64,000 nt of DNA from Zopfochytrium polystomum (Eukaryota; Chytridiomycota; Chytridiomycetes; Chytridiales; Chytridiaceae), in assembly GCA_025765615.1 (NCBI GenBank), contig JAIVFJ010000010.1, forward strand, positions 434,001 to 498,000, in the 5' to 3' direction. Numbering within the stretch: position 1 is the first letter of the stretch; each line of letters starts with the position of its first letter. This document shows, in pieces, positions 9,537 through 51,462 of this stretch. The translations under genes were made by a program, and so were the position numbers. A model generated the notes under the pieces. It saw only the letters and a list, made by a program, of their open reading frames with translations. It was not told the DNA's origin and did no database searches.

Positions 9537-9549
9537 GTCGGGCGCAGAT

Positions 9550-14279: not shown

Positions 14280-14504
14280 TTTTATACCTTTTGAGAGTCT
14301 TCCTTGTCAAGACTCAAAGAAAGTTCCAGAAAGAGCAATTAGTAATACAATGATACCAATGATACCAATGACAACAAGACAAGTCAGGAAAGCAAAGAAG
14401 GTTCCAGAAGGTTCCGCAAGGTTCCATGAAGGAATGTTCTAGAAGGTTCCGTGAAGGAATGTTCTAGAAGGTTCCAGAGGTTTCCAGAGGGTGATTAATA
14501 ACAA
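14280..14504 (-). mobile_element. Chromovirus LTR, partial, broken by the LINE
   Basis: The sequence starts at TTTTATACC (the TATA box of the LTR read backwards) and runs to the LTR terminus at 14504. The other half of the LTR is not found on the far side of the LINE, so the LINE insertion was accompanied by loss of flanking sequence. Confidence 0.8.
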
Positions 14505-14858: not shown

Positions 14859-15153
14859 TGACTGGAAACCTCTGGAACCCTCTAGAACATTCCTTCATGG
14901 AACCTTGTGGAACCTTCCGGAACCTTCTTTACTTTCCGGACTTGTCTTGTTGTCATTGGTATCATTGGTATCATTGTATTACTAATTGCTCTTTCTGGAA
15001 CTTTCTTTGAGTCTTGACAAGGAAGACTCTCAAAAGGTATAAAAGGGGGATGGGGAACCTGTCCCATCCCTCAAGTGAATTATTTTTTCCAATACAATCA
15101 TCACTCCTCTCAGCTCCTTGTCTGCCTTGTCCTGTCCTGCCCTGTTCCTGACA
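14859..15153 (+). mobile_element. Solo chromovirus LTR, 5' end damaged
   Basis: The LTR is complete at its 3' end (TTCCTGACA) and includes the TATA box and start motif, but about 13 nt of the 5' end are altered or missing. It sits in copia leader sequence. The base before it (CAACA) matches the CAACA after the LTR fragment at 970-1127. Confidence 0.8.
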
Positions 15154-15874: not shown

Positions 15875-16227
15875 TGTCAGGAACAGGGCAGGACAGGACC
15901 AGGCAGACAAGGAACTGAGAGGAGTGATGATTGTATTGGAAACAATAATTCACTTGAGGGATGGGACAGGTCCCCCATCCCCCTTTTATACCTTTTGAGA
16001 GTCTTCCTTGTCAAGACTCAAAGAAAGTTCCAGAAAGAGCAATTAGTAATACAATGATACCAATGATACCAATGACAACAAGACAAGTCAGGAAAGCAAA
16101 GAAGGTTCCAGAAGGTTCCACAAGGTTCCATGAAGGAATGTTCTAGAAGGTTCCAGAAGGTTCCAGAAGGTTCCATGAAGGAATGTTCTAGAAGGTTCCA
16201 GAGGTTTCCAGAGGGTGATTCATAACA
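15875..16227 (-). repeat. 3' LTR of copy A (353 bp)
   Basis: It carries the long, 20-unit pentamer array, against 11 units in the 5' LTR. The polypurine tract AAAAGGGGGAGATGA, which also holds the pol stop, abuts it. Confidence 0.95.
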
Positions 16228-19200
16228 TCATCTCCCCCTTTTAGGCCTCTTCTGCAACTTGGTGGGGTACCTGGTCTTGAACTCGAGCAGAAGGTCTTGG
16301 CAGTGAGTGAGGTTTGACTCAGGCTCCCAGGTGTTGTCAGCATCTGAGTAACCTTTCCACTTAACAAGGAACTTGAGTGTTCTTCCAAACCACTTGGCAT
16401 CCAAGATTTGTTCAACCTCAAATTCCTCTTCACCTTCTACCTCAACTGGAGGAGGAGGAGGAACAACTCTGCCTGGAATGGAATTGGCCACAAACTTCTC
16501 TAAAAGGCTGACATGGAAAACTGGGTGGATCTTCATGGATGCAGGGAGATCCAGCTTGAAGGTGACTGGATTGATTTGCTCCAAGATCTTGAAAGGTCCC
16601 AACTTGAGGTTGTCTAGCTTGGGACTTGGTCTTTTGGTCTGCAAGTTCTTCCTCAGAAGCCAAACTTGCTGACCCACAGCAAGGTCATGGTCCATTCTGT
16701 GAGTGTTGGCGAATCTTGAGGCATCTTCTTGGGCTTGCTTCAGGGTGGAGTCCAGGAAGGAGTTGATGATCTTGAGCTTATGTAAGTGTGAAGCCGCAGC
16801 AGGAGCTTGGACATTGGATAGGGTCTCTTGTCCCAGAAGATCTCCTCTTGGATTGAAGCCATAGGTTGCAAAGAAAGGAGATAGCTGGGTGCTTGAGTGG
16901 AGAGAATTGTTGAGAGCAAATTCTGCCAGTGGAAGGAGGGTGGGCCAATCATCCTGTTGATAGCTGACATAGCACCTCAAATACTGCTCCAGAGTCTGGT
17001 TTGTTCTTTCTGTTTGTCCATCAGTCTGAGGGTGATAAGCAGTTGACAGTTGAGACTTGATTCCAAGGGCTGCTGTGAGTGCTTTCCAAAATTGAGATCT
17101 GAACTGAGGTCCTCTGTCACTGATGATTGACTGAGGCAGCCCATGGAGCCTGAATATGTGCTGCAAAAACAGGTCTGCTGTTCCTTGTGCATCTATATTC
17201 TCAGTGCAGGGGATGAAATGGGCCAACTTTGTCCTTCTGCAGATGACAACAAGGATAGAGTCAAATCCATGGGATGGGGGCAGTTTCACAATGAAGTCCA
17301 TGGATATTGATGACCAAGGGCTGATGGCAATTGGGAGGGGCTCCAGAAGTCCATAGGGCTTGTGTCTGCTGGATTTGTTTCTTTGACAGGTTTCACAGCT
17401 GCTGACATAGTTCTTGATGTACTTCCTCATGCCTGGCCAGTAGAAGTCTCTGGAAACAAGCTCATAGGTCTTGTGCTCTCCTGGGTGTCCAGCTGTTGCT
17501 GCATCATGCCTTGTCTTGAGTATCTCAAGTTTTTCCTCTTCTTGGCTGATTTGAATCTTGTGAGGCTTGGGGTCCTTGGAAATAGCATGGGCCCACACAC
17601 TGTCAGGAAGCAATGAAAGGTGTGTCTTGGATGGTGGGGTGAAACCATCTCCCCCTTCAGGTGCAAGGTCTGTTCTTCTTGACAGGGCATCAGCCACAGT
17701 GTTAAGGTGGCCAGGAGAATAGCACAGCTTAAAGTCATACTCAGAGAGCAGTTCAGCCCACCTGGCATGCCTCTGTTTGAGCAACCTCCTTGCCCTGAAG
17801 AAGGTGAGGTTCTTGTGATCAGAATAGACAGAGATGCCTTTAGAACCAGCCAAGTAGTGTCTCCAGAATTTGAATGCTTCCACAATTGCAAGCAACTCCT
17901 TGTCATGGACTGTGTAGTTACACTCAGCACTGTTCAGCTTCCTGGAGTAATATGCCACTGGATGCAGAGGAGCAGAGGGGTCCTGAGAGCTTGGCTGGGA
18001 CAGAACAGCACCGAGGGCATAGTCTGAGGCATCAGTTTCCAAGGTGAAGGGAAGCAAGGGATCCACATGCTTAAGGAGTGGTGCACTTGTGGTTGCTGTC
18101 TTAAGAGCTAGCCAGGCTTGCTCTGCTGCTGGGGTCCATTCAAACTTGGTGGTCTTCTTGGTGAGATCAGTGAGAGGCTTGGCTATGGCAGAATAGTTGG
18201 CAATGAAGGTTCTGTAGAAGTTGCAAAACCCAAGGAAGCTTTGAACATCCTTGATGGAATTTGGAGCCTTCCATTCAAGAATAGTTTGGATCTTGTCTGG
18301 TGCCATGGAGATCCCTTTGTCAGACACAATGAACCCCAAAAACTCAATGGAGGTCTTGTGGAATTCACACTTCTCCAGCTTTGCATAGAGGTGATGCTGT
18401 CTGAGTCTCTCCAAGACAGTCTTGACATGTCCCATATGGCTTGCAGTGTCGGACGAAAATACCAGGATATCATCCAGGTAGACAATGACAAAAAGGTCCA
18501 GAATATCCCTGTAGATGTCATTCATCATGCCTTGGAAAATAGCTGGAGCATTGGTAAGTCCAAAGGGCATGACCAAGTACTCAAAGTGACTGTATTTGCA
18601 TCTGAAGGCAGTCTTCCATTGATCCTGGGGCTTAATTCTGACCAAATTGTAGGCACCTCTGAGGTCAATCTTGGAAAATATCCTTGCATGGCTCAGTTTG
18701 TCCAGTAATTCAGAGATGAGAGGCAGTGGATAGCGGTTCTTGACTGTCATCTCATTGAGATCTCTGTAGTCCACGCAGGGTCTCAGCCCCCCATCCTTCT
18801 TCTTGACAAAAAAGATGGGAGCTCCAGCTGGTGACTTGGAAGGTTGGATGAATCCCTTGTTCAGCATTTCTTCAATGTATTCCTGGAGGGCCTTGGCTTC
18901 TGGTGGAGAGAGGTGGTACAGTGGCTTGAAAGGTGGGCTGAAAGTTTCATCCTTGAGTGGGATTTCACAGTCAAAAGGCCTCTGAGCTGGTAGCAGGTCT
19001 GCCTTGGTCTTGGAAAACACATCAGCATAAGGGAGATATTCTTTTGGTAGCTTGGATGCCAGCAAAAGGTCTGATGGGTCCAGGTTGCTGTGCTCTTCAG
19101 CAGTGGGGCTTGAATTCTTGACTGGGAACTGTGATTCTTGAATCTTTGACTGAGAGTTCTGTTCTTGGCAAAGACTGTGAGCTGTGGAACTTGAATCTTG

Positions 19201-19935
19201 AATGTGGACTGTGAACTGTGGTACTTGAATCTTTGACTGTGGGTTCTGTGAACTAGAGTCTTGGCCATGACTGTGAGCTCTATGAGCTCTACTTGAATCT
19301 TGACTGTGAACTGTGAACTGTGGAACTTGAGTCTTGGCTGGCTGTGAATCTTGAATCAAGGGCTTGAGAGCATGAGACTTGGGGGCTTGACTTGAGTTTT
19401 GGGTGACTGTTCCAATTGGTGGAGGTTGGACTTGACCAGTGACCCAATCAATGTCAGGGTTCTGGGCTTGCAGGCATGGTAATCCCAGGATGACAGAGAA
19501 TGTGGGTGAGCCAAGATCCAATACTTCCAGGTTGACCATGGATGGTGGAAAGTCTTGGATGTGGAGGTTTAGCTTGGTTTCATGGCTGATTTCCTTGAAC
19601 AGAGCATGATTGGCAAAGTGGACCTTGAGGGGTGTGGATTTCTTGATCGTAGGAATGGCACAAGACTTGGCAAGGGTGGCATCAATGATGTTGCAGGATG
19701 ATCCAGAGTCTATAAGGGCCTTGGTTGTGATGGTTGACTTGGGTGAGAGTTGAATCTTGACATCCACGGTGAGTTGGTGGGGCTTGGAATCTGAGGTGTT
19801 TGTGGTGCTGGTGGTGGTGATGAAACAGGGCAGCTTGGAGGAGGGTCCAGGGAATTGCCCCTCAGTGAGCCTGGACCTGGGAGCTTGGGTGCTTCTTCCT
19901 TGGGCAGTCCTTGACAGCGTGCTCCTTGCAGCCAC
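16228..19935 (-). CDS. pol: Pol polyprotein of copy A (PR-RT-RH-IN-chromodomain)
   Basis: The open frame of 1235 codons has an aspartic protease ([10 protein letters not shown]), RT with the YLDDILVFS catalytic box, RNase H (ETDASDYALGAV), integrase with an HHCC zinc finger (H-x-H...CETC) and a D-D-E core (SMDFIV, SDRGPQF, DGQTERTNQ), a GPF/Y module (LGPFKI) and a C-terminal chromodomain ([18 protein letters not shown]). It overlaps gag. Relative to copies B and C it has lost one C near 19836 (CCC for CCCC), so it lies in the +1 rather than the -1 frame of gag. Confidence 0.93.
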   Translation of the reverse strand: MAARSTLSRTAQGRSTQAPRSRLTEGQFPGPSSKLPCFITTTSTTNTSDSKPHQLTVDVKIQLSPKSTITTKALIDSGSSCNIIDATLAKSCAIPTIKKSTPLKVHFANHALFKEISHETKLNLHIQDFPPSMVNLEVLDLGSPTFSVILGLPCLQAQNPDIDWVTGQVQPPPIGTVTQNSSQAPKSHALKPLIQDSQPAKTQVPQFTVHSQDSSRAHRAHSHGQDSSSQNPQSKIQVPQFTVHIQDSSSTAHSLCQEQNSQSKIQESQFPVKNSSPTAEEHSNLDPSDLLLASKLPKEYLPYADVFSKTKADLLPAQRPFDCEIPLKDETFSPPFKPLYHLSPPEAKALQEYIEEMLNKGFIQPSKSPAGAPIFFVKKKDGGLRPCVDYRDLNEMTVKNRYPLPLISELLDKLSHARIFSKIDLRGAYNLVRIKPQDQWKTAFRCKYSHFEYLVMPFGLTNAPAIFQGMMNDIYRDILDLFVIVYLDDILVFSSDTASHMGHVKTVLERLRQHHLYAKLEKCEFHKTSIEFLGFIVSDKGISMAPDKIQTILEWKAPNSIKDVQSFLGFCNFYRTFIANYSAIAKPLTDLTKKTTKFEWTPAAEQAWLALKTATTSAPLLKHVDPLLPFTLETDASDYALGAVLSQPSSQDPSAPLHPVAYYSRKLNSAECNYTVHDKELLAIVEAFKFWRHYLAGSKGISVYSDHKNLTFFRARRLLKQRHARWAELLSEYDFKLCYSPGHLNTVADALSRRTDLAPEGGDGFTPPSKTHLSLLPDSVWAHAISKDPKPHKIQISQEEEKLEILKTRHDAATAGHPGEHKTYELVSRDFYWPGMRKYIKNYVSSCETCQRNKSSRHKPYGLLEPLPIAISPWSSISMDFIVKLPPSHGFDSILVVICRRTKLAHFIPCTENIDAQGTADLFLQHIFRLHGLPQSIISDRGPQFRSQFWKALTAALGIKSQLSTAYHPQTDGQTERTNQTLEQYLRCYVSYQQDDWPTLLPLAEFALNNSLHSSTQLSPFFATYGFNPRGDLLGQETLSNVQAPAAASHLHKLKIINSFLDSTLKQAQEDASRFANTHRMDHDLAVGQQVWLLRKNLQTKRPSPKLDNLKLGPFKILEQINPVTFKLDLPASMKIHPVFHVSLLEKFVANSIPGRVVPPPPPVEVEGEEEFEVEQILDAKWFGRTLKFLVKWKGYSDADNTWEPESNLTHCQDLLLEFKTRYPTKLQKRPKRGR

Positions 19936-20785
19936 AGTAGAAACACAGTCCCTGCTGGGCCCTCCTTGTTTTCTCCTCTTGGCTCAGAGGACCCTTAGGA
20001 AGTGTCTCAACTGCATCCACTTGCATGGGTTCAGGAACTGTAAGAGCTTGAGGGACTGGGGTAGGTCTTGATGTAGTTCCTACTTGTCTTTGCTTCAGCC
20101 TCTTGGAGTAGAGTCTGTTGTCAATCTTGATGGCAAGGAGAATGTACTCTTCCAAGGTCTCAGGGATGTGCAGAGACTGGGAGAGCATGTCTTGGATGGA
20201 CTCATGGAGACCATCATGGTACAGCTCCATCAGAGCTGCATCATTGTATCCAGAGTCTCTGGTTAGTTGCTTGAATTGGTTGGTGTAGGCCACACAAGAT
20301 TGCTCTCCTTGCTTGATATGCTTGAGCTTGGATCTTGCTGTCCAAGATGCGTAGGGGTCACCAAAGGTAGCTTCCAGCCCCTCCCAGAGCTCTTGCAGGG
20401 TGGTGGGTGTGCTTGGGAGAGATCTGTACCATGATTGAGCTTGACCAGACAGGAGGGTGCTTGTGAAAAGAACCTTGACTTGCTCACTGGGAAATCTTGA
20501 AGGTTGGAGAAGGATGACATTCTCCACAGTGGCCATAAAGTTCCTAAGGTCTTTGGCCAGCCCAGTGAACTTGTCAGGGCTGGGAACCTTGGGCTCTCTT
20601 GCTTGGTTGGCTTGGGGCAGGGGAAGAGCTTGATGTTCTTGTTGGTGAAGTTGTTGTTGAAGCTGGTGCTGCTGGTGAAGGACTTGTTCTTGAAGTTGGT
20701 GTGTCTGTCTTGAAAGGGCTTGTAATTGGTCCATCAAGGCTTGGAAGGCAGTTGCATCAGGGAAGGTGTTGTTTGGGTCAGACAT
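19862..20785 (-). CDS. gag: Gag of copy A
   Basis: The 307-residue protein has a Gln-rich N-terminal coiled region, a retrotransposon gag core ([21 protein letters not shown]) and one CCHC zinc knuckle near residues 281-294 ([14 protein letters not shown]). It would form the particle and package RNA. It is nearly identical to the Gags of B and C; Asn near the C-terminus is Ser here because of the slippery-site change. Confidence 0.93.
   Translation of the reverse strand: MSDPNNTFPDATAFQALMDQLQALSRQTHQLQEQVLHQQHQLQQQLHQQEHQALPLPQANQAREPKVPSPDKFTGLAKDLRNFMATVENVILLQPSRFPSEQVKVLFTSTLLSGQAQSWYRSLPSTPTTLQELWEGLEATFGDPYASWTARSKLKHIKQGEQSCVAYTNQFKQLTRDSGYNDAALMELYHDGLHESIQDMLSQSLHIPETLEEYILLAIKIDNRLYSKRLKQRQVGTTSRPTPVPQALTVPEPMQVDAVETLPKGPLSQEEKTRRAQQGLCFYCGCKEHAVKDCPRKKHPSSQVQAH
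19883..19889 (-). other. Mutated -1 frameshift site of copy A
   Basis: On the minus strand the heptamer reads C CCA AGC, where copies B and C have C CCA AAC. The downstream 8-bp stem is intact. The A-to-G change removes the second slippage pairing, and pol has moved to another frame. Confidence 0.75.
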
Positions 20786-20812
20786 GATGACAGAGAGTAG
20801 TAGGAGAGGGTG

Positions 20813-20823
20813 AAGTGAATTAT
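20813..20823 (-). other. Self-complementary primer-binding site of copy A
   Basis: ATAATTCACTT (minus strand) starts 3 nt after the 5' LTR and is the exact complement of AAGTGAATTAT found 35 nt after the first T of the LTR TATA box. Confidence 0.75.
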
Positions 20824-20825
20824 GA

Positions 20826-21133
20826 TGTCAGGAACAGGGCAGGACAGGACAAGGCAGACAAGGAACTGAGAGGAGTGATGATTGTATTGGAAACAATAAT
20901 TCACTTGAGGGATGGGACAGGTTCCCCATCCCCCTTTTATACCTTTTGAGAGTGTTCCTTGTCAAGACTCAAAGAAAGTTCCGGAAAGAGCAATTAGTAA
21001 TACAATGATACCAATGATACCAATGACAACAAGACAAGTCAGGAAAGTAAAGAAGGTTCCAGAAGGTTCCAGAAGGTTCCATGAAGGAATGTTCTAGAAG
21101 GTTCCAGAGGTTTCCAGAGGGTGATTCATAACA
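20826..21133 (-). repeat. 5' LTR of copy A (308 bp)
   Basis: TATAAAA lies at 20935-20941 (minus strand). The pentamer array has 11 units, 45 bp shorter than in the 3' LTR. Confidence 0.95.
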
Positions 21134-32078: not shown

Positions 32079-32735
32079 ATTAATTCTAACAAAAAACTAG
32101 GGGATGCCCATTGACTTGTAAGCAATCCTTGCCAAAAAATAAAAAAAAAAAAAGAAGAGAAAAAATGATTAAAGACAAAGCCTTCAATGGATATTGGTTG
32201 TCCCACACACAGGCAATCTGTCCCTGGATTGAAATGGGGTGGCATGCCACAATGAACATTGTGTGGCAGGCCATGCGGAGAGTGACCAACAAAGCTTGGG
32301 GTGTTAGCCCCAAGCCACTGACACACTGACAGACAAAGGAGGACAGAAAGAGAGAGAAGTCGCAGCCTTTCAGCACAGCCACACTGGCAAACCTGGAACC
32401 TCTGACAAACTGAGTGCTGCGCTTGCAGCCGTTGGTCGCTCCTGCAGCAACCCATTTGACTGCAACAGGAAGACTGACAGCCTGTTGAATGCAACAGTCA
32501 CCAAAGTGCTCACAGAACCCAGAGGGAGAAACACAAACAGCCCGTTGACTTTAGTTCAAACAAAGAGGCAGTCATTGATTGATAGATAGACAACAGCCTG
32601 TTGACTTTGCAAAATCATTAACTGATATATCATTTCAGTTGGCTCCTCCTCCCAGTGACTCCAAGGAAGTGGGGCTGCAGTCTCCCCTCCACCCTTCCTT
32701 CTCCTTTTGGGTTGGTTGCAAATCTTCAAAGAAGG
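32079..32735. repeat. Low-copy repeat, second copy near 38060-38360
   Basis: The segment 32100-32400 is closely similar to 38065-38360, including a poly-A run, GATTAAAGACAA and an imperfect hairpin (TGGCATGCCACAATG / ATTGTGTGGCAGGCCA). Motifs of the type ACAGCCTGTTGACTT recur. No gene is seen. Confidence 0.7.
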
Positions 32736-32763
32736 TGTTATGAATCACCCTCTGGAAAACTCT

Positions 32764-32863
32764 GGAACCTTCTAGAACATTCCTTCATGGAACCTTCTGG
32801 AACCTTCTGGAACCTTCTAGAACATTCCTTCATGGAACCTTGTGGAACCTTCTGGAACCTTCT
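32764..32863 (+). promoter_or_regulatory. Heat-shock-element-like pentamer array in U3
   Basis: Exactly 100 bp divide into 20 contiguous pentamers, 17 of which fit nGAAn or nTTCn, beginning GGAAC CTTCT AGAAC ATTCC. Eight successive units alternate GAA/TTC without a break. This is the known binding pattern of trimeric heat-shock factor. The same array occurs in the LTRs of A, B and the solo LTRs. Confidence 0.7.
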
Positions 32864-32926
32864 TTGCTTTCCTGACTTGTCTTGTTGTCATTGGTATCAT
32901 TGGTATCATTGCATTACTAATTGCTC

Positions 32927-32941
32927 TTTCTGGAACTTTCT
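32927..32941 (+). promoter_or_regulatory. Separate trimeric heat-shock element
   Basis: TTTCT GGAAC TTTCT is a perfect three-unit nTTCn-nGAAn-nTTCn element, 32 bp upstream of the TATA box. Confidence 0.6.
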
Positions 32942-32972
32942 TGGAGTCTTGACAAGGAACACTCTCAAAAGG

Positions 32973-32979
32973 TATAAAA
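32973..32979 (+). promoter_or_regulatory. LTR TATA box
   Basis: TATAAAA in the context GGTATAAAAGGGGG is conserved in every LTR in the window. Confidence 0.8.
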
Positions 32980-33154
32980 GGGGGATGGGGGACCTGTCCC
33001 ATCCCTCAAGTGAATTATTGTTTCCAATACAATCATCACTCCTCTCAGTTCCTTGTCTGCCTTGTCCTGTCCTGCCCTGTTCCTGACACAATACAATCAT
33101 CACTCCTCTCAGTTCCTTGTCTGCCTTGTCCTGTCCTGCCCTGTTCCTGACATC

Positions 33155-33165
33155 ATAATTCACTT
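33155..33165 (+). other. Self-complementary primer-binding site of copy C
   Basis: ATAATTCACTT begins 3 nt after the LTR end at 33152. It is complementary over exactly 11 nt to 33008-33018 and the pairing does not extend on either side. Confidence 0.8.
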
Positions 33166-33192
33166 CACCCTCTCCCACTACTCTCTGCCATC

Positions 33193-34116
33193 ATGTCTGA
33201 CCCAAACAACACCTTCCCTGATGCAACTGCCTTCCAAGCCTTGATGGACCAATTACAAGCCCTCTCAAGACAGACACACCAACTTCAAGAACAAGTCCTT
33301 CACCAGCAGCACCAGCTTCAACAACAACTTCACCAACAAGAACATCAAGCTCTTCCCCTGCCTCAAGCCAACCAAGCAAGAGAGCCCAAGGTTCCCAGCC
33401 CTGACAAGTTCACTGGGCTGGCCAAAGACCTTAGGAACTTCATGGCCACTGTGGAGAATGTCATCCTTCTCCAACCTTCAAGATTTCCCAGTGAGCAAGT
33501 CAAGGTTCTTTTCACAAGCACCCTCCTGTCTGGTCAAGCTCAATCATGGTACAGATCTCTCCCAAGCACACCCACCACCCTGCAAGAGCTCTGGGAGGGG
33601 CTGGAAGCTACCTTTGGTGACCCCTACGCATCTTGGACAGCAAGATCCAAGCTCAAGCATATCAAGCAAGGAAAGCAATCTTGTGTGGCCTACACCAACC
33701 AATTCAAGCAACTAGCCAGAGACTCTGGATACAATGATGCAGCTCTGATGGAGCTGTACCATGATGGTCTCCATGAGTCTATCCAAGACATGCTCTCCCA
33801 GTCTCTGCACATCCCTGAGACCTTGGAAGAGTACATTCTCCTTGCCATCAAGATTGACAACAGACTCTACTCCAAGAGGCTGAAGCAAAGACAAGTAGGA
33901 ACTACATCAAGACCTACCCCAGTTCCTCAAGCTCTTACAGTTCCTGAACCCATGCAAGTGGATGCAGTTGAGACACTTCCTAAGGGTCCTCTGAGCCAAG
34001 AGGAGAAAACAAGGAGGGCCCAGCAGGGACTGTGTTTTTACTGTGGCTCCAAGGAGCATGCTGTCAAGGACTGCCCAAGGAAGAAGCACCCAAACTCCCA
34101 GGTCCAGGCTCACTGA
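33193..34116 (+). CDS. gag: Gag of copy C
   Basis: 307 aa; gag core, Gln-rich N-terminal part and a CCHC knuckle ([14 protein letters not shown]). The stop codon lies in the loop of the frameshift stem. Confidence 0.93.
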
Positions 34117-36335
34117 GGGGCAATTCCCTGGACCCTCCTCCAAGCTGCCCCTGTTTCATCACCACCACCACCACCACAAACACCTCAGATTCCAAGCCCC
34201 ACCAACTCACCATGGATGTCAAGATTCAACTCTCACCCAAGTCAACCATCACAACCAAGGCCCTTATAGACTCTGGATCATCCTGCAACATCATTGATGC
34301 CACCCTTGCCAAGTCTTGTGCCATTCCTACGATCAAGAAATCCACACCCCTCAAGGTCCACTTTGCCAATCATGCTCTGTTCAAGGAAATCAGCCATGAA
34401 ACCAAGCTAAACCTCCACATCCAAGACTTTCCACCATCCATGGTCAATCTGGAAGTATTGGATCTTGGCTCACCCACATTCTCTGTCATCCTGGGATTAC
34501 CATGGCTGCAAGCCCAGAACCCTGCCATTGATTGGGTCACTGGTCAAGTCCAACCTCCACCAATCGGAACAGTCACCCAAAACTCAAGTCAAGCCCCCAA
34601 GTCTCATGCTCTCAAGCCCTTGATTCAAGATTCACAGCCAGCCAAGACTCAAGTTCCACAGTTCACAGTTCACAGTCAAGATTCAAGTAGAGCTCATAGA
34701 GCTCACAGTCATGGCCATGACTCTTGTTCACAGAACCCACAGTCAAAGATTCAAGTACCACAGTTCACAGTCCACATTCAAGATTCAAGTTCCACAGCTC
34801 ACAGTCTTTGCCAAGAACAGAACTCTCAGTCAAAGATTCAAGAATCACAGTTCCCAGTCAAGAATTCAAGCCCCACTGCTGAAGAGCACAGCAACCTGGA
34901 CCCATCAGACCTTTTGCTGGCATCCAAGCTACCAAAAGAATATCTCCCTTATGCTGATGTGTTTTCCAAGACCAAGGCAGACCTGCTACCAGCTCAGAGG
35001 CCTTATGACTGTGAAATCCCACTCAAGGATGAAACTTGCAGCCCACCTTTCAAGCCACTGTACCACCTCTCTCCACCAGAAGCCAAGGCCCTCCAAGAAT
35101 ACATTGAAGAAATGCTGAACAAGGGATTCATCCAACCTTCCAAGTCACCAGCTGGAGCTCCCATCTTTTTTGTCAAGAAGAAGGATGGGGGACTGAGACC
35201 CTGTGTGGACTACAGAGATCTCAATGAGATGACAGTCAAGAACCGCTATCCACTGCCTCTCATCTCTGAATTACTGGACAAACTGAGCCATGCAAGGATA
35301 TTTTCCAAGATTGACCTCAGAGGTGCCTACAATTTGGTCAGAATTAAGCCCCAGGATCAATGGAAGACTGCCTTCAGATGCAAATACGGTCACTTTGAGT
35401 ACTTGGTTATGCCCTTTGGACTTACCAATGCTCCAGCTATTTTCCAAGGCATGATGAATGACATCTTCAGGGATATTCTGGACCTTTTTGTCATTGTCTA
35501 CCTGGATGATATCCTGGTATTTTCATCTGACACTGCAAGCCATATGGGACATGTCAAGACTGTCTTGGAGAGACTCAGACAGCATCACCTCTATGCAAAG
35601 CTGGAGAAGTGTGAATTCCACAAGACCTCCATTGAGTTTTTGGGGTTCATTGTGTCTGACAAAGGGATCTCCATGGCACCAGACAAGATCCAAACTATTC
35701 TTGAATGGAAGGCTCCAAATTCCATCAAGGATGTTCAAAGCTTCCTTGGATTTTGCAACTTCTACAGAACCTTCATTGCCAACTATTCTGCCATAGCCAA
35801 GCCTCTCACTGATCTCACCCTGAAGCAAGCCCAAGAAGATGCCTCAAGATTTGCCAACACTCACAGAATGGACCATGACCTTGCTGTGGGTCAGCAAGTT
35901 TGGCTTCTGAGGAAGAACTTGCAGACCAAAAGACCAAGTCCCAAGCTAGACAACCTCAAGTTGGGTCCTTTCAAGATCTTGGAGCAAATCAATCCAGTCA
36001 CCTTCAAGCTGGATCTCCCTGCATCCATGAAGATCCACCCAGTTTTCCATGTCAGCCTTTTAGAGAAGTTTGTGGCCAATTCCATTCCAGGCAGAGTTGT
36101 TCCTCCTCCTCCTCCAGTTGAGGTAGAAGGTGAAGAGGAATTTGAGGTTGAACAAATCTTGGATGTCAAGTGGTTTGGAAGAACACTCAAGTTCCTTGTT
36201 AAGTGGAAAGGTTACTCAGATGCTGACAACACCTGGGAGCCTGAGTCAAACCTCACTCACTGCCAAGACCTTCTGCTCGAGTTCAAGACCAGGTACCCCA
36301 CCAAGTTGCAGAAGAGGCCTAAAAGGGGGAGATGA
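34032..36335 (+). CDS. pol: Pol of copy C, lacking RNase H and integrase core
   Basis: The 767-codon frame has protease ([10 protein letters not shown]), complete RT with YLDDILVFS at residue 490, then at residue 596 a jump from ...PLTDLT to [11 protein letters not shown], followed by the GPF module and chromodomain. Relative to copy B 472 residues are missing in frame. The junction lies in CACC, which is present at both ends of the lost segment. It is expressed by frameshifting from gag; translation would begin before the first Met. Confidence 0.9.
34089..34122 (+). promoter_or_regulatory. Programmed -1 frameshift signal (gag/pol)
   Basis: The slippery heptamer C CCA AAC (34089-34095) is in gag frame. 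After a 5-nt spacer (TCCCA) there is an 8-bp perfect stem, GGTCCAGG with CCTGGACC, and an 18-nt loop holding the gag stop (the second arm ends near 34134). Pol is open in the -1 frame over this region. Heptamer type, spacer and stem match known -1 signals. Confidence 0.8.
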
Positions 36336-36688
36336 TGTTATGAATCACCCTCTGGAAACCTCTGGAACCTTCTAGAACATTCCTTCATGGAACCTTCTGG
36401 AACCTTCTGGAACCTTCTAGAACATTCCTTCATGGAACCTTGTGGAACCTTCTGGAACCTTCTTTGCTTTCCTGACTTGTCTTGTTGTCATTGGTATCAT
36501 TGGTATCATTGCATTACTAATTGCTCTTTCTGGAACTTTCTTGGAGTCTTGACAAGGAACACTCTCAAAAGGTATAAAAGGGGGATGGGGGACCTGTCCC
36601 ATCCCTCAAGTGAATTATTGTTTCCAATACAATCATCACTCCTCTCAGTTCCTTGTCTGCCTTGTCCTGTCCTGCCCTGTTCCTGACA
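36336..36688 (+). repeat. 3' LTR of copy C (353 bp)
   Basis: Almost identical to the 5' LTR apart from the terminal 64-bp duplication, which suggests a recent insertion. Confidence 0.95.
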
Positions 36689-36693
36689 GAAGG

Positions 36694-42559: not shown

Positions 42560-42866
42560 TGTTATGAATCACGCCTCTGTAAACCTCTGGAACCTTCTAG
42601 ACCATTCCTTCATGGAACCTTGTGGAACCTTCTGGAACCTTCTTTGCTTTCCTGACTTGTCTTGTTGTCATTGGTATCATTGGTATCATTGTATTACTAA
42701 TTGCTCTTTCTGGAACTTTCTTTGAGTCTTGACAAGGAAGACTCTCAAAAGGTATAAAAGGGGGATGGGGGACCTGTCCCATCTCAAGTGAATTGTTGTT
42801 TCCAATACAATCATCACTCCTCTCAGTTCCTTGTCTGCCTTGTCCTGTCGTGCCCTGTTCCTGACA
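42560..42866 (+). mobile_element. Solo chromovirus LTR with target duplication
   Basis: A complete 307-bp LTR is flanked by the perfect duplication AAGTA (42555-42559 and 42867-42871), the expected product of LTR-LTR recombination. It has the short form of the pentamer array with a few substitutions. Confidence 0.95.
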
Positions 42867-43230: not shown

Positions 43231-44076
43231 CATCAGCGTGCCAGCTATCTGGCTGCATCAACCACAGATTCTAGTCGAGAAAAACACTCTCTACCACCTC
43301 CAACAAACAGAATCAGCATAGCTCAACGGTGGAAACCATTTCGTTTGGGAGGCCCAAAATTTTCGACACCCTCTCCCAGCCGACCCCGTCATTCAATCCG
43401 GGCTTGCGATGGTGCATTCAACAGCCCTGAATCTCCTCTTTCTAACGAGTTATTACAGAGCTCTCTACGTTGTCTCTACGGAATTTGATTGATTGCCGAA
43501 GTCAAAAACGCTTCCTCAACTTTGAGTGACATTGTCGCAACAGGGAGAAGCGATCAGAGGACGCCCTTGCATACCCATATTCTCCTGCTTCTGCTCTTTT
43601 GATTAATTTTTAACACGCCCCGCCACGACGCCCACAGCTGGAGCTACAAGAGATTTTGATAAGGGGGTCCAAAAGTCAAACACCACCACCTCCAACCACA
43701 TTTTTGTCCTTTCTTGTGTGACAAGTCACCCCATCTGGACACCAAATTGCTCTAAGTTCTCTCCATTTCGTTCTCCAACACTCCCCAAGGGACAATACCA
43801 CCAAAAGTTTGATTCTTGGCCTGAAATTTGGCACACAATCGCTATTCATCAGTGCCAACTTGCTATTCCGATTCAGAATGTTCCGTCCATCAATCAGCTT
43901 GCAACAAGCATTGTGTGCAACACACATCTTCTACTCTGGACCATTTCTCCATCAAGTAGAGCATCAAACAACTCCTAGAGTCACTATTTGTCACTGCCAG
44001 TCTGTCAAGCAACTCCTCCGAATTTTTCCAGCAACTGGTTTTCTCCTGCAACAGAATTATCACTACACACAACGCC
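43231..44076 (+). other. Copia leader
   Basis: About 850 bp between LTR and gag have no ORF of note. Related fragments occur at 14505-14858 and, inverted, at 15154-15600. I see no obvious tRNA-type primer-binding site. Confidence 0.6.
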
Positions 44077-45027
44077 ATGTCGTCCAACCTAAACTCGTTT
44101 GTTGGCATGTTCACTGGCAAGACACTGATGGAATTCAATGACTTTATTAGTAACCTTCAGATCAAGGTTATTGGTGAAAAGAGAATTCAGGACCTAACAC
44201 AGACAGACCTATTCCCTCTTGAGAGACCTTTCTGCAACAAGGAGGCCTACCATACATACATCACACACCTACCAAAGGATCAGTGGGACAGATGGCGTTT
44301 CTGGTTGCACTGTCGAAATGGTGGGCACAGCACACCAGAGCCAAAGGCTGGTGAAACACTCTCACTGAACTATCTCTATGTACCGACTGTCGCTGAGCAA
44401 GCTAATGCTGGACCAGTCGTGGCTGTCGAAGCAACTGTCAAGTACCAGATTCAGCATCACATCATGACTTCATCAGAGCTCATGAATGCTGTGCTGAAGA
44501 TGCATGCCACCTTCATCAAGGAGAACAAAACAGCTCGGTCAGCTTTGATGAGTGCGTCACACGCAGGCATAGCATCTCTTCCATACATGATCGATTCTGG
44601 AGCTGTACCCACAATGATCCCACAACGAAAACAATTCACTGAGTACCAACGATTTGAAACCGAACACCATGCCCACCTAGCAGATGACCATGAATGCTGC
44701 ATTGAAGGAATTGGATCTGTCACTCTCACTTTTCCTGGTTTTGATGTGGTGCTCTGCAATGTGCTTCATGTCCCATCACTCAAGGAACCACTCCTCTCTG
44801 TGTCGCATGTCCTCCAAGACCCAACTGCTGGGATGCTATTCACTCAAGATTCTGTCTTTCTTCTTGATCTTGCTACACTCACATCACAACACAGCATCAA
44901 AATTGGCAAACGATGTGACAGCCTTTACTATCTCATCCCAGTCCAGCACCCAACTGCGCAGAGAAAAATTTCAGTTGAGCCCATTGCCTACGCATCACCA
45001 GCAACTGCACGAGACCTGTGGCACTGA
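44077..45027 (+). pseudogene. Copia gag-protease
   Basis: The 316-codon frame has a short Gag without a CCHC knuckle, then an aspartic protease region with MIDSGAVPTM (Asp near residue 173). It ends at ...ARDLWH followed by TGA, exactly where the gag-pre-integrase motif LWH(R)xFGH should continue, so the stop is within the polyprotein. Confidence 0.85.
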
Positions 45028-46157
45028 CAGTTTGGCCACATCCACTGAGAGCAAGTACATGACACTCTCAAGTCTGGTGATGTCTACGGTGCTCCTGCTC
45101 CACCACCAACAACACGCAAGCCTTGCCTCATTTGCGATATGGCAAAGATGCGCCGGCAACACCTCATGGCCAAACCTCATTTTGATTTTGCCCTGCTGCA
45201 GATGTTGTGTACTGACCAAACTGGAAAGATCAGTACACGTTCTCTTGACAGTTCCAACTACTTTGAAGTTATTGTTGACAATGCCACAGGCTATACTTGG
45301 GTCAACACTGCTGCTCGCACAGCAGGCATCACTCAAAGGATAATTGATCGCATTGATTTTGAAGAGCAACTCTTCCCCACTCATTGAACACTATTTGTAC
45401 AGGCAGACAACCTCAGTCCTAACACTCAGCAATTTGAGACCTACTGTATCAACCACCAACCTCCCATCATCTTCCAGCCTTCTGTCCCTTATGTCAAGGA
45501 GGGTGATGGTGTTGCAGAAAATGCCATCAAGGTCATCACCCACATTGCTTCCTGTCTAATGATCAAAGCTCAGCTTCCGCGGTTCTTCTGGTCCTACACA
45601 ATACGCCATGCTTCATTCCTGCGCAATCGTGTGCAACACACTCGCACTGGTCGAATTCCATTTGATTATTACCAAGGCTGAAAACCCAGCCTACGCCACC
45701 TTGGAATTTTTGGCTGCCTCATTGTCACACTCAACAATGAGTATACAGAACCTGCAAACTCACACAAGACCAAGTTCTCTCCTCGGGCCTCACTTGGACT
45801 CTTCTTGGGTTTCTACACAGACAGCAAGTCTATTGCCCTCAGCTACGACTTTACTGCACGGACCATTCTTTGGACACACCACTATAACTTGCATGAGCAT
45901 GTCTTTCCTGGCCTTGTCTGCAGTGACGCCTGTCAAACCACCACTTGACTCTTACCATCGATTGTCCAACTCCTCCTGATGGTGCTCCCTCCACTTGTAC
46001 TCGCCAGCAACTGCGCCAGGCTTCTGGGGGGGTAACAGCTGCCGTCATCAACAACAAACTCCTCAGATCAACCTCCAACTCTTCCCCAAGATATGGAAGA
46101 CAATAATGACAATGACGACAATGGTTGGAACCCTGACACATTCGCTGTCATCCTGGG
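45028..46157 (+). pseudogene. Copia integrase region, broken
   Basis: After the TGA the homology goes on: FGHIH, a CLICDMAKMRRQH zinc-finger remnant, an integrase core with a degenerate first Asp region, EGDGVAENAIKVI with the catalytic Glu, and HLGIFGCLI. In-frame TGA codons stand at FGHIH(TGA)EQVH and YYQG(TGA)KPSL, and there are frameshifts. Copy B interrupts it at 46157. Confidence 0.8.
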
Positions 46158-46510
46158 TGTCAGGAACAGGGCAGGACAGGGCAAGGCAGACAAGGAACTG
46201 AGAGGAGTGATGATTGTATTGGAAACAATAATTCACTTGAGGGATGGGACAGGTCCCCCATCCCCCTTTTATACCTTTTGAGAGTGTTCCTTGTCAAGAC
46301 TCCAAGAAAGTTCCAGAAAGAGCAATTAGTAATACAATGATACCAATGATACCAATGACAACAAGACAAGTCAGGAAAGCAAAGAAGGTTCCAGAAGGTT
46401 CCACAAGGTTCCATGAAGGAATGTTCTAGAAGGTTCCAGAAGGTTCCAGAAGGTTCCATGAAGGAATGTTCTAGAAGGTTCCAGAGGTTTCCAGAGGGTG
46501 ATTCATAACA
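46158..46510 (-). repeat. 3' LTR of copy B (353 bp)
   Basis: Adjacent to the polypurine tract AAAAGGGGGAGATGA, whose TGA is the pol stop. Confidence 0.95.
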
Positions 46511-49500
46511 TCATCTCCCCCTTTTAGGCCTCTTCTGCAACTTGGTGGGGTACCTGGTCTTGAACTCGAGCAGAAGGTCTTGGCAGTGAGTGAGGTTTGA
46601 CTCAGGCTCCCAGGTGTTGTCAGCATCTGAGTAACCTTTCCACTTAACAAGGAACTTGAGTGTTCTTCCAAACCACTTGGCATCCAAGATTTGTTCAACC
46701 TCAAATTCCTCTTCACCTTCTACCTCAACTGGAGGAGGAGGAGGAACAACTCTGCCTGGAATGGAATTGGCCACAAACTTCTCTAAAAGGCTGACATGGA
46801 AAACTGGGTGGATCTTCATGGATGCAGGGAGATCCAGCTTGAAGGTGACTGGATTGATTTGCTCCAAGATCTTGAAAGGACCCAACTTGAGGTTGTCTAG
46901 CTTGGGACTTGGTCTTTTGGTCTGCAAGTTCTTCCTCAGAAGCCAAACTTGCTGACCCACAGCAAGGTCATGGTCCATTCTGTGAGTGTTGGCAAATCTT
47001 GAGGCATCTTCTTGGGCTTGCTTCAGGGTGGAGTCCAGGAAGGAGTTGATGATCTTGAGCTTATGTAAGTGTGAAGCCGCAGCAGGAGCTTGGACATTGG
47101 ATAGGGTCTCTTGTCCCAGAAGATCTCCTCTTGGATTGAAGCCATAGGTTGCAAAGAAAGGAGATAGCTGGGTGCTTGAGTGGAGAGAATTGTTGAGAGC
47201 AAATTCTGCCAGTGGAAGGAGGGTGGGCCAATCATCCTGTTGATAGCTGACATAGCACCTCAAATACTGCTCCAGAGTCTGGTTTGTTCTTTCTGTTTGT
47301 CCATCAGTCTGAGGGTGATAAGCAGTTGACAGTTGAGACTTGATTCCAAGGGCTGCTGTGAGTGCTTTCCAAAATTGAGATCTGAACTGTGGTCCTCTGT
47401 CACTGACAATTGACTGAGGCAGCCCATGGAGCCTGAATATGTGCTGCAAAAACAGGTCTGCTGTTCCTTGTGCATCTATATTCTCAGTGCAGGGGATGAA
47501 ATGGGCCAACTTTGTCCTTCTGCAGATGACAACAAGGATAGAGTCAAATCCATGGGATGGGGGCAGTTTCACAATGAAGTCCATGGATATTGATGACCAA
47601 GGGCTGATGGCAATTGGGAGGGGCTCCAGAAGTCCATAGGGCTTGTGTCTGCTGGACTTGTTTCTTTGACAGGTTTCACAGCTGCTGACATAGTTCTTGA
47701 TGTACTTCCTCATGCCTGGCCAGTAGAAGTCTCTGGAAACAAGCTCATAGGTCTTGTGCTCTCCTGGGTGTCCAGCTGTTGCTGCATCATGCCTTGTCTT
47801 GAGTATCTCAAGTTTTTCCTCTTCTTGGCTGATTTGAATCTTGTGAGGCTTGGGGTCCTTGGAAATAGCATGGGCCCACACACTGTCAGGAAGCAATGAA
47901 AGGTGTGTCTTGGATGGTGGGGTGAAACCATCTCCCCCTTCAGGTGCAAGGTCTGTTCTTCTTGACAGGGCATCAGCCACAGTGTTAAGGTGGCCAGGAG
48001 AATAGCACAGCTTAAAGTCATACTCAGAGAGCAGTTCAGCCCACCTGGCATGCCTCTGCTTGAGCAACCTCCTTGCCCTGAAGAAGGTGAGGTTCTTGTG
48101 ATCAGAATAGACAGAGATGCCTTTAGAACCAGCCAAGTAGTGTCTCCAGAATTTGAATGCTTCCACAATTGCAAGCAACTCCTTGTCATGGACTGTGTAG
48201 TTACACTCAGCACTGTTCAGCTTCCTGGAGTAATATGCCACTGGATGCAGAGGAGCAGAGGGGTCCTGAGAGCTTGGCTGGGACAGAACAGCGCCAAGGG
48301 CATAGTCTGAGGCATCAGTTTCCAAGGTGAAGGGAAGCAAGGGATCCACATGCTTAAGGAGTGGTGCACTTGTGGTTGCTGTCTTAAGAGCTAGCCAGGC
48401 TTGCTCTGCTGCTGGGGTCCATTCAAACTTGGTGGTCTTCTTGGTGAGATCAGTGAGAGGCTTGGCTATGGCAGAATAGTTGGCAATGAAGGTTCTGTAG
48501 AAGTTGCAAAATCCAAGGAAGCTTTGAACATCCTTGATGGAATTTGGAGCCTTCCATTCAAGAATAGTTTGGATCTTGTCTGGTGCCATGGAGATCCCTT
48601 TGTCAGACACAATGAACCCCAAAAACTCAATGGAGGTCTTGTGGAATTCACACTTCTCCAGCTTTGCATAGAGGTGATGCTGTCTGAGTCTCTCCAAGAC
48701 AGTCTTGACATGTCCCATATGGCTTGCAGTGTCAGATGAAAATACCAGGATATCATCCAGGTAGACAATGACAAAAAGGTCCAGAATATCCCTGAAGATG
48801 TCATTCATCATGCCTTGGAAAATAGCTGGAGCATTGGTAAGTCCAAAGGGCATAACCAAGTACTCAAAGTGACCGTATTTGCATCTGAAGGCAGTCTTCC
48901 ATTGATCCTGGGGCTTAATTCTGACCAAATTGTAGGCACCTCTGAGGTCAATCTTGGAAAATATCCTTGCATGGCTCAGTTTGTCCAGTAATTCAGAGAT
49001 GAGAGGCAGTGGATAGCAGTTCTTGACTGTCATCTCATTGAGATCTCTGTAGTCCACACAGGGTCTCAGTCCCCCATCCTTCTTCTTGACAAAAAAGATG
49101 GGAGCTCCAGCTGGTGACTTGGAAGGTTGGATGAATCCCTTGTTCAGCATTTCTTCAATGTATTCTTGGAGGGCCTTGGCTTCTGGTGGAGAGAGGTGGT
49201 ACAGTGGCTTGAAAGGTGGGCTGCAAGTTTCATCCTTGAGTGGGATTTCACAGTCATAAGGCCTCTGAGCTGGTAGCAGGTCTGCCTTGGTCTTGGAAAA
49301 CACATCAGCATAAGGGAGATATTCTTTTGGTAGCTTGGATGCCAGCAAAAGGTCTGATGGGTCCAGGTTGTCGTGCTCCTCAGCAGTGGGGCTTGAATTC
49401 TTGACTGGGAACTGTGATTCTTGAATCTTTGACTGAGAGTTCTGTTCTTGGCAAAGACTGTGAGCTGTGGAACTTGAATCTTGAATGTGGACTGTGAACT

Positions 49501-50230
49501 GTGGTACTTGAATCTTTGACTGTGGGTTCTGTGAACAAGAGTCATGGCCATGACTGTGAGCTCTATGAGCTCTACTTGAATCTTGACTGTGAACTGTGAA
49601 CTGTGGAACTTGAGTCTTGGCTGGCTGTGAATCTTGAATCAAGGGCTTGAGAGCATGAGACTTGGGGGCTTGACTTGAGTTTTGGGTGACTGTTCCGATT
49701 GGTGGAGGTTGGACTTGACCAGTGACCCAATCAATGGCAGGGTTCTGGGCTTGCAGCCATGGTAATCCCAGGATGACAGAGAATGTGGGTGAGCCAAGAT
49801 CCAATACTTCCAGATTGACCATGGATGGTGGAAAGTCTTGGATGTGGAGGTTTAGCTTGGTTTCATGGCTGATTTCCTTGAACAGAGCATGATTGGCAAA
49901 GTGGACCTTGAGGGGTGTGGATTTCTTGATCGTAGGAATGGCACAAGACTTGGCAAGGGTGGCATCAATGATGTTGCAGGATGATCCAGAGTCTATAAGG
50001 GCCTTGGTTGTGATGGTTGACTTGGGTGAGAGTTGAATCTTGACATCCATGGTGAGTTGGTGGGGCTTGGAATCTGAGGTGTTTGTGGTGGTGGTGGTGG
50101 TGATGAAACAGGGGCAGCTTGGAGGAGGGTCCAGGGAATTGCCCCTCAGTGAGCCTGGACCTGGGAGTTTGGGTGCTTCTTCCTTGGGCAGTCCTTGACA
50201 GCATGCTCCTTGGAGCCACAGTAAAAACAC
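46511..50230 (-). CDS. pol: Pol polyprotein of copy B, full length
   Basis: The 1239-codon frame, in the -1 frame of gag, has protease Asp at residue 80, RT YLDD at 490-493, RNase H first Asp at 639 (ETDAS), integrase HHCC finger at about 800-850, D-D-E core (SMDFIV, SDRGPQF, TERTNQ), LGPFKI and a C-terminal chromodomain. All catalytic residues are visible, so this is the most likely active copy. The chromodomain would direct integration to particular chromatin. Confidence 0.95.
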   Translation of the reverse strand: MFLLWLQGACCQGLPKEEAPKLPGPGSLRGNSLDPPPSCPCFITTTTTTNTSDSKPHQLTMDVKIQLSPKSTITTKALIDSGSSCNIIDATLAKSCAIPTIKKSTPLKVHFANHALFKEISHETKLNLHIQDFPPSMVNLEVLDLGSPTFSVILGLPWLQAQNPAIDWVTGQVQPPPIGTVTQNSSQAPKSHALKPLIQDSQPAKTQVPQFTVHSQDSSRAHRAHSHGHDSCSQNPQSKIQVPQFTVHIQDSSSTAHSLCQEQNSQSKIQESQFPVKNSSPTAEEHDNLDPSDLLLASKLPKEYLPYADVFSKTKADLLPAQRPYDCEIPLKDETCSPPFKPLYHLSPPEAKALQEYIEEMLNKGFIQPSKSPAGAPIFFVKKKDGGLRPCVDYRDLNEMTVKNCYPLPLISELLDKLSHARIFSKIDLRGAYNLVRIKPQDQWKTAFRCKYGHFEYLVMPFGLTNAPAIFQGMMNDIFRDILDLFVIVYLDDILVFSSDTASHMGHVKTVLERLRQHHLYAKLEKCEFHKTSIEFLGFIVSDKGISMAPDKIQTILEWKAPNSIKDVQSFLGFCNFYRTFIANYSAIAKPLTDLTKKTTKFEWTPAAEQAWLALKTATTSAPLLKHVDPLLPFTLETDASDYALGAVLSQPSSQDPSAPLHPVAYYSRKLNSAECNYTVHDKELLAIVEAFKFWRHYLAGSKGISVYSDHKNLTFFRARRLLKQRHARWAELLSEYDFKLCYSPGHLNTVADALSRRTDLAPEGGDGFTPPSKTHLSLLPDSVWAHAISKDPKPHKIQISQEEEKLEILKTRHDAATAGHPGEHKTYELVSRDFYWPGMRKYIKNYVSSCETCQRNKSSRHKPYGLLEPLPIAISPWSSISMDFIVKLPPSHGFDSILVVICRRTKLAHFIPCTENIDAQGTADLFLQHIFRLHGLPQSIVSDRGPQFRSQFWKALTAALGIKSQLSTAYHPQTDGQTERTNQTLEQYLRCYVSYQQDDWPTLLPLAEFALNNSLHSSTQLSPFFATYGFNPRGDLLGQETLSNVQAPAAASHLHKLKIINSFLDSTLKQAQEDASRFANTHRMDHDLAVGQQVWLLRKNLQTKRPSPKLDNLKLGPFKILEQINPVTFKLDLPASMKIHPVFHVSLLEKFVANSIPGRVVPPPPPVEVEGEEEFEVEQILDAKWFGRTLKFLVKWKGYSDADNTWEPESNLTHCQDLLLEFKTRYPTKLQKRPKRGR
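50128..50173 (-). promoter_or_regulatory. Programmed -1 frameshift signal of copy B
   Basis: On the minus strand C CCA AAC (50173-50167) is followed by a 5-nt spacer and the same GGTCCAGG/CCTGGACC stem as in copy C. Confidence 0.8.
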
Positions 50231-51069
50231 AGTCCCTGCTGGGCCCTCCTTGTTTTCTCCTCTTGGCTCAGAGGACCCTTAGGAAGTGTCTCAACTGCAT
50301 CCACTTGCATGGGTTCAGGAACTGTAAGAGCTTGAGGAACTGGGGTAGGTCTTGATGTAGTTCCTACTTGTCTTTGCTTCAGCCTCTTGGAGTAGAGTCT
50401 GTTGTCAATCTTGATGGCAAGGAGAATGTACTCTTCCAAGGTCTCAGGGATGTGCAGAGACTGGGAGAGCATGTCTTGGATAGACTCATGGAGACCATCA
50501 TGGTACAGCTCCATCAGAGCTGCATCATTGTATCCAGAGTCTCTGGCTAGTTGCTTGAATTGGTTGGTGTAGGCCACACAAGATTGCTTTCCTTGCTTGA
50601 TATGCTTGAGCTTGGATCTTGCTGTCCAAGATGCGTAGGGGTCACCAAAGGTAGCTTCCAGCCCCTCCCAGAGCTCTTGCAGGGTGGTGGGTGTGCTTGG
50701 GAGAGATCTGTACCATGATTGAGCTTGACCAGACAGGAGGGTGCTTGTGAAAAGAACCTTGACTTGCTCACTGGGAAATCTTGAAGGTTGGAGAAGGATG
50801 ACATTCTCCACAGTGGCCATGAAGTTCCTAAGGTCTTTGGCCAGCCCAGTGAACTTGTCAGGGCTGGGAACCTTGGGCTCTCTTGCTTGGTTGGCTTGAG
50901 GCAGGGGAAGAGCTTGATGTTCTTGTTGGTGAAGTTGTTGTTGAAGCTGGTGCTGCTGGTGAAGGACTTGTTCTTGAAGTTGGTGTGTCTGTCTTGAAAG
51001 GGCTTGTAATTGGTCCATCAAGGCTTGGAAGGCAGTTGCATCAGGGAAGGTGTTGTTTGGGTCAGACAT
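50146..51069 (-). CDS. gag: Gag of copy B
   Basis: 307 aa, apparently identical to copy C over the CCHC region and C-terminus. Translation of Pol depends on the frameshift within its last 10 codons. Confidence 0.93.
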   Translation of the reverse strand: MSDPNNTFPDATAFQALMDQLQALSRQTHQLQEQVLHQQHQLQQQLHQQEHQALPLPQANQAREPKVPSPDKFTGLAKDLRNFMATVENVILLQPSRFPSEQVKVLFTSTLLSGQAQSWYRSLPSTPTTLQELWEGLEATFGDPYASWTARSKLKHIKQGKQSCVAYTNQFKQLARDSGYNDAALMELYHDGLHESIQDMLSQSLHIPETLEEYILLAIKIDNRLYSKRLKQRQVGTTSRPTPVPQALTVPEPMQVDAVETLPKGPLSQEEKTRRAQQGLCFYCGSKEHAVKDCPRKKHPNSQVQAH

Positions 51070-51096
51070 GATGGCAGAGAGTAGTGGGAGAGGGTG

Positions 51097-51107
51097 AAGT
51101 GAATTAT
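51097..51107 (-). other. Self-complementary primer-binding site of copy B
   Basis: ATAATTCACTT (minus strand) lies 2 nt from the 5' LTR, with its complement in the LTR 35 nt after the start of the TATA box. Confidence 0.8.
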
Positions 51108-51109
51108 GA

Positions 51110-51462
51110 TGTCAGGAACAGGGCAGGACAGGGCAAGGCAGACAAGGAACTGAGAGGAGTGATGATTGTATTGGAAACAATAATTCACTTGAGGGATGGG
51201 ACAGGTCCCCCATCCCCCTTTTATACCTTTTGAGAGTGTTCCTTGTCAAGACTCCAAGAAAGTTCCAGAAAGAGCAATTAGTAATACAATGATACCAATG
51301 ATACCAATGACAACAAGACAAGTCAGGAAAGCAAAGAAGGTTCCAGAAGGTTCCACAAGGTTCCATGAAGGAATGTTCTAGAAGGTTCCAGAAGGTTCCA
51401 GAAGGTTCCATGAAGGAATGTTCTAGAAGGTTCCAGAGGTTTCCAGAGGGTGATTCATAACA
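51110..51462 (-). repeat. 5' LTR of copy B (353 bp)
   Basis: TATAAAA lies at 51219-51225 (minus strand). The 20-unit pentamer array is at the outer end. Confidence 0.95.

Follow-up and report, generated by a model that had tools for sequence, protein, structure and literature searches.

A putative heat-shock-factor-driven promoter in the LTRs of a CpG-depleted, self-priming chromovirus of Zopfochytrium polystomum

The long terminal repeat (LTR) at 32736-33088 of the window (the whole 64-kb stretch of Zopfochytrium polystomum DNA analysed here) is probably the promoter, driven by heat-shock transcription factor (HSF), of a Ty3-type, Tf1-like self-priming chromovirus. From the sequence itself we establish the anatomy of this promoter, its family-wide presence in a sample of LTRs, the occurrence of comparable elements in scored host heat-shock promoters and the depletion of CpG. 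The main rivals to an HSF-responsive LTR are expression through HSF that is basal or follows another stress, and a minisatellite of fitting letters.

The element at 32731-36693 and its relatives in the window

The element lies on the forward strand between identical target-site duplications of GAAGG (32731-32735 and 36689-36693). Its CpG-free 5′ LTR (32736-33088; 353 bp, TGTTATG...CTGACA) differs by one base from the 3′ LTR (36336-36688), which carries the same array pattern of heat-shock elements (HSEs; running from 36364 to 36463) and an HSE trimer at 36527. At 33089-33152 the final 64 bp of the 5′ LTR are repeated in tandem, a duplication (33025-33152 in all) that the 3′ LTR does not share and that the primer site immediately follows. 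The body holds a gag ORF (33193-34114; PF03732, E 1.5e-12) and a shortened pol ORF (33984-36332) encoding protease, reverse transcriptase (RT), SH3_Tf2-1 and a chromodomain, in which no match to RNase H or to the integrase core was found.

Two full-length relatives lie on the reverse strand: one at 46158-51462, with identical LTRs (46158-46510 and 51110-51462), the target-site duplication CTGGG and an open pol frame of 1255 aa, and one at 15875-21133, with the duplication TCAGA and LTR array alleles of 65 and 110 bp. LTR fragments are found at 14280-14503 (reverse strand, with the array) and 14862-15153 (forward strand, with array and trimer), and a further LTR copy with array and trimer at 42560-42866 (forward strand). 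The pol frames of the two full-length relatives (16231-19983 and 46514-50278) encode RT, RNase H, H2C2, integrase core, SH3_Tf2-1 and chromodomain in this order, and the family is therefore a chromovirus. The assignment to the chromoviruses made in the original prediction is thus borne out by the gag of the element at 32736 together with the Ty3 order of RT, RNase H, integrase and chromodomain in these relatives. LTR ends of the form TG..CA with a 5-bp target duplication were found in six of the seven intervals tested; the seventh (L041) seemingly comprises two neighbouring elements, the second LTR being followed by the primer site. An LTR type without the array, at 980-1143, was considered as an alternative enhancer and rejected, being the LTR core joined to another repeat. 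The wider region 700-1143 is a dispersed element of short ATCTGACG-like tandem units joined to an LTR core fragment.

The LTR also holds the putative self-primer. The 11 nt AAGTGAATTAT at 33008-33018, the first of which is 35 bases downstream of the start of TATAAAA, are the exact complement of the primer-binding site ATAATTCACTT at 33155-33165, two bases past the LTR end, and it is from this match and the TATA box that we infer a transcript start at 33008. A match between the putative 5′ end of the transcript and the site after the LTR is how a Tf1-type self-primer is arranged. A script seeking AATTCACT directly after LTR ends returned 25 rows, representing 19 distinct element starts, and the start-side sequence is intact in every one; because the pattern required part of the primer site, these numbers give no share of elements that possess it. 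Judged by sequence, we class the element at 32736 as a self-priming chromovirus of the Ty3 superfamily.

A 5-bp-phased array in the LTR and its counterparts in host heat-shock promoters

The array occupies 32754-32863 as a 110-bp allele of 5-bp-phased nGAAn and nTTCn pentamers in blocks split by TTCAT. The original prediction had counted 17 such pentamers among the 20 at 32764-32863, eight of them in strict alternation, and both counts hold: the class string reads GTGT.GTGTGTGT.G.GTGT, and the eight form a single run at 32789-32828, with further alternating runs of four at 32764 and 32844. When the LTR was shuffled 1000 times with dinucleotides preserved, the highest count in any 100 bp was 3.8 on average (maximum 8, versus 17 in the real LTR) and the longest alternating run 1.4 (maximum 3, versus 8). 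The array is also a tandem repeat with units of 10 and 45 bp, and base shuffles therefore overstate the number of independently arisen sites. The filler pentamer TTCAT interrupts the array, dividing it into blocks and reversing the alternation, and a strictly alternating 20-unit model therefore scores only 31/60, inside the range of control windows (maximum 32/60); the features that stand out are the 5-bp phase and the runs of four and eight. In the 64-kb window all alternating runs of at least three fall inside LTRs of the chromovirus family, with one exception at 5916.

Downstream of the array the LTR presents, in order, two inverted CCAAT boxes, an HSE trimer, the TATA box and the putative start. 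The CCAAT boxes (ATTGG at 32890 and 32899), to which a promoter function may be ascribed, lie in 2.7 copies of the 9-bp repeat TCATTGGTA (32888-32911). The perfect trimer TTTCTGGAACTTTCT (32927-32941) stands upstream of the TATA box TATAAAA (32973-32979) as predicted, the gap between them being 31 bases rather than the 32 first given.

The host genome has both HSF-type domains and sites of this kind. HSF-type DNA-binding domains were found in 14 exon rows of the genome, SFVRQLNMYGFHKV being common to the six domain sequences displayed, and the top PDB matches of one such domain are heat-shock transcription factors. HSF-like domains of another type, which we take to be Skn7-like, are also present (L013, L014). 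To each promoter we gave a score over four consecutive pentamers (12 letters) within 200 bp before the TATA box. The scored set consists of the cytosolic HSP70 promoters L052, L057 and L058, the HSP90 promoter L062 and ten small-HSP regions drawn from 33 rows after weak partial rows and rows equal in score and frame had been left out; L051 (whose upstream TATA and start are the same as those of L052), BiP (L056), the mitochondrial-type HSP70 loci and L064 were also set aside. A score of 11/12 is reached by 11 of the 14 promoters, namely eight of ten small-HSP and three of three cytosolic HSP70 promoters, and by none of 573 control windows of 200 bp, which came from non-LTR parts of the 64-kb window irrespective of any TATA box. 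The promoters below this score are two small-HSP promoters (7 and 8) and the HSP90 promoter (7), i.e., L065, L067 and L062. The elements of the eight small-HSP promoters at 11/12 begin 50 to 94 bp before TATA, and in five of them the element is GGAATTGTCCAGAAACTTCC. The chromovirus LTR scores 12/12 over four pentamers and 24/24 over eight, and a long perfect array occurs in none of the 14 scored host heat-shock promoters. The host thus marks most of its scored heat-shock genes with such elements, and the LTR version is cleaner and longer than that of any scored promoter. Since most scored host promoters carry the same kind of element, the HSF reading rests on the host genome and goes beyond analogy. 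HSF and HSP70 genes with matching scores also occur on different contigs (C17/C403 and C174/C709 of G000), as in an assembly with two haplotypes or duplications.

The family across the genome and the variable length of its arrays

In the 80.16-Mb genome the exact TATA-core pattern occurs at 1571 places, the module of trimer and TATA box at fixed spacing at 1723 and a six-pentamer pattern at 2188, and each reversed control at none. Both strands list identical six-pentamer places because that pattern is its own reverse complement; the matches listed (the first 100 rows, on contigs C1-C5) comprise 25 distinct six-pentamer arrays, every one inside an LTR of the chromovirus family. A perfect four-pentamer pattern with a different first spacer was found at 75 places versus 5 in its control, and most of its spacers are seen in the family. 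In viral contigs (2.9 million) the six-pentamer pattern matched 15 stretches, which we take as background, and a search of those contigs with a piece of pol found no relatives.

From the 1571 TATA-core places we sampled the first 60 in positional order, a choice independent of the array in which decayed LTR copies are under-sampled because the core pattern demands an exact match. The predicted array recurs throughout this sample: an alternating run of at least four pentamers is present in 58 of the 60 LTRs, the longest run being four in 31, five in two, six in six, eight in 18 and twelve in one (L136, with 12 perfect alternating pentamers in a row), and only three in the remaining two. The trimer is found in 59 LTRs (at the same spacing in 55, one base further in three and two bases further in one) and is lacking in one. 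Of the copies read, L036 has diverged most (87% in the part that matched); it keeps the array, and a single additional T breaks its trimer.

A somewhat unlikely alternative is LTR expression that depends on HSF or a related factor but is basal or follows oxidative stress, with no special response to heat. The presence in the genome of the other HSF-like domain type (L013, L014) would suit this explanation, as would the TATA-proximal trimer, which alone could give basal activity; against it, the up to 12 perfect alternating pentamers of L136 exceed the scored host promoters. Runs of this length, beyond those of the scored host promoters, argue for HSF, not for heat itself. The abundance of sites in the family (1723 trimer-TATA modules and 2188 six-pentamer places in 80 Mb) raises the prospect that the many LTR promoters titrate HSF and damp the host heat response, whatever the effect on the element; we consider such a sink very unlikely to be the explanation of the array, and many copies may sit in closed chromatin.

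Among the core places listed, three distances are common between LTRs paired on the same strand, about 4.9 kb (full length), 3.5 kb and 2.83 kb, which suggests amplified deletion derivatives that share the LTR. Two stretches of C6 are tandem arrays: in G000:C6:359966-372704 five LTR promoters follow one another every 3171 bp exactly, and in C6:235306-240535 LTR promoters are spaced 1725 bp apart on each strand.

Array length is variable. Of 115 readings tried, 108 succeeded and yielded 36 distinct arrays of 20 to 155 bp, most commonly 65 or 110 bp; the readings include duplicates of certain loci, and part of the apparent recurrence comes from both LTRs of a single element. In 31 of the 36 the length is divisible by 5, which says little for a constraint on phase because units of 10 and 45 bp produce them anyway. 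The variants change GAA/TTC letters and free positions alike (e.g., AGAGC, CTCCT, GCAAC), with no clear avoidance of the former. The unequal alleles in the two LTRs of the element at 15875-21133 suggest that the array changed during or after reverse transcription. The idea that longer arrays drive success is not supported, as each of the four commonest downstream letter combinations is found with the 65-bp as well as the 110-bp allele, and longer arrays show no link to any subfamily.

These observations bear on the explanation of the array as a functionless minisatellite, in which the 10-bp unit TGGAACCTTC was expanded by slippage and GAA and TTC fell at 5-bp spacing by chance. The tandem units of 10 and 45 bp, the spread of lengths among the 36 distinct arrays with substitutions also at core letters, and the element whose LTRs differ in allele all fit it, and because the array is a tandem repeat, slippage copying of one favourable unit would look identical. 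Even so, we regard the minisatellite as unlikely, since the unit carries the motif seen in those host heat-shock promoters that were scored and since a separate, non-tandem trimer stands before the TATA box in 59 of the 60 sampled LTRs, at equal distance in 55.

Conservation was read site by site in 57 of the 60 LTRs, the array-end marker being missing in the other three. Mean pairwise difference within the two main alleles is 1.5% and 1.2% over the aligned stretch. In this young family none of the 15 trimer sites varies in at least two copies, versus 17 of 92 other sites, 9 of the 17 belonging to one 9-bp repeat unit. The trimer is intact in 56 of the 57, and 14 of 93 15-mer windows, the trimer included, are kept equally well. 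With so many 15-mers equally kept, conservation in so young a family is no sign of selection on either array or trimer.

CpG depletion, proposed mechanism and known systems

The LTR at 32736-33088 has 0 CpG versus 16.3 expected, and CpG is absent from 54 of the 57 sampled LTR promoter parts, with one CpG in each of the other three. Depletion extends over the whole full-length copy at 46158-51462, which has 8 CpG versus 294 expected (observed/expected 0.03), with TpG and CpA raised to 1.52 and 1.38. The CpG ratio is 0.64 for the whole window and 1.03 to 1.27 in three blocks of 4 kb in which other long ORFs are plentiful. Depletion, to about 0.4, is also seen in further repeats of the window (126/286 at 8640-13954 and 29/75 at 43960-45343), and the chromovirus family is therefore the extreme of a general trend. 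Codon choice follows suit: in the pol of the copy at 46158-51462 all 47 arginines are AGA or AGG and none is CGN, versus 36 CGN and 8 AGR codons in two ORFs taken as host genes. The depletion is old, built into a seemingly recent insertion with open frames, and is not decay after insertion. CHG sites are present in the 353-bp LTR at the expected level (14 versus 13.4). The genome has 19 rows of DNA-methyltransferase domains, several with stops.

We propose that under heat or proteotoxic stress host HSF trimers would occupy the array and, together with the proximal trimer, drive transcription from the TATA box. The transcript would begin at 33008, and its first 11 nt would anneal to the primer site and so serve as primer for its reverse transcription. 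Proteins would come from autonomous copies, also for deletion derivatives such as the element at 32731-36693. If other repeats are silenced by CpG methylation, the near-total lack of CpG would keep the promoter accessible to HSF. We infer that the nearly CpG-free body resists silencing. Array length would shift mainly by units that preserve the 5-bp phase.

It is also conceivable, and we suggest it tentatively, that two joint escapes, a slippage-tunable HSE array and a CpG-purged body, spread the family to more than 1,700 LTR promoters. In that case an array stronger than the scored host promoters would mean that the host could mount no heat response without expressing the element, while the 5.3-kb body, coding parts included, would leave CpG methylation or CpG-directed mutation little target. 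Collectively the copies could also form a sink for HSF and act as mobile promoters that respond to heat.

If the HSF reading is true, the family would be an HSF-driven retrotransposon independent of ONSEN, a plant element, in a fungus, in another superfamily and with another primer system, and one genome would hold more than 1,700 dispersed HSF promoters. This would let one test whether bursts under stress built a large share of the genome, and the naturally occurring arrays, among which perfect runs of 4, 6, 8 and 12 exist, would allow array length to be set against the strength of the response. It would likewise allow tests of HSF titration by repeats and of CpG loss as a route by which a young, intact element stays expressible.

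Among known systems, fission yeast Tf1 is a self-priming chromovirus of the Tf1/sushi type. The family described here resembles that type in its RT, RNase H, integrase, SH3_Tf2-1 and chromodomain and in its 11-nt self-complementary primer arrangement, and may differ from it in the HSE array of its U3. MAGGY of Magnaporthe, a fungal chromovirus reported to respond to heat, copper and oxidative stress, may be the nearest in kind to this HSE-array chromovirus. A Drosophila element shares with the chromovirus LTR the presence of HSE-like sites in a retrotransposon promoter; it is described as transcribed without heat and as devoid of the further nGAAn copies needed for high affinity (PMC3907296).

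The closest parallel in principle is ONSEN of Arabidopsis. Its LTR contains an nGAAn heat-responsive element bound by HSF, and its promoter is reported to be free of CG and CHG, by which, the authors argue, maintenance methylation is circumvented (PMC3907296). Both LTRs have elements of the nGAAn type and lack CG, the role of HSF being a prediction here, whereas active ONSEN LTRs also lack CHG and the chromovirus LTR has 14 such sites. Furthermore, ONSEN is a Copia element and the present family belongs to the Ty3 superfamily; in the chromovirus the whole element beyond the LTR is nearly CpG-free, and the length of its HSE array is variable. As it shares neither the Copia nor the CHG-free feature, we do not class the family as a member of ONSEN. 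The comparison in principle across superfamilies, as originally drawn, is apt: the domain order with a chromodomain is that of Ty3 and not of Copia, and the LTR is likewise free of CpG.
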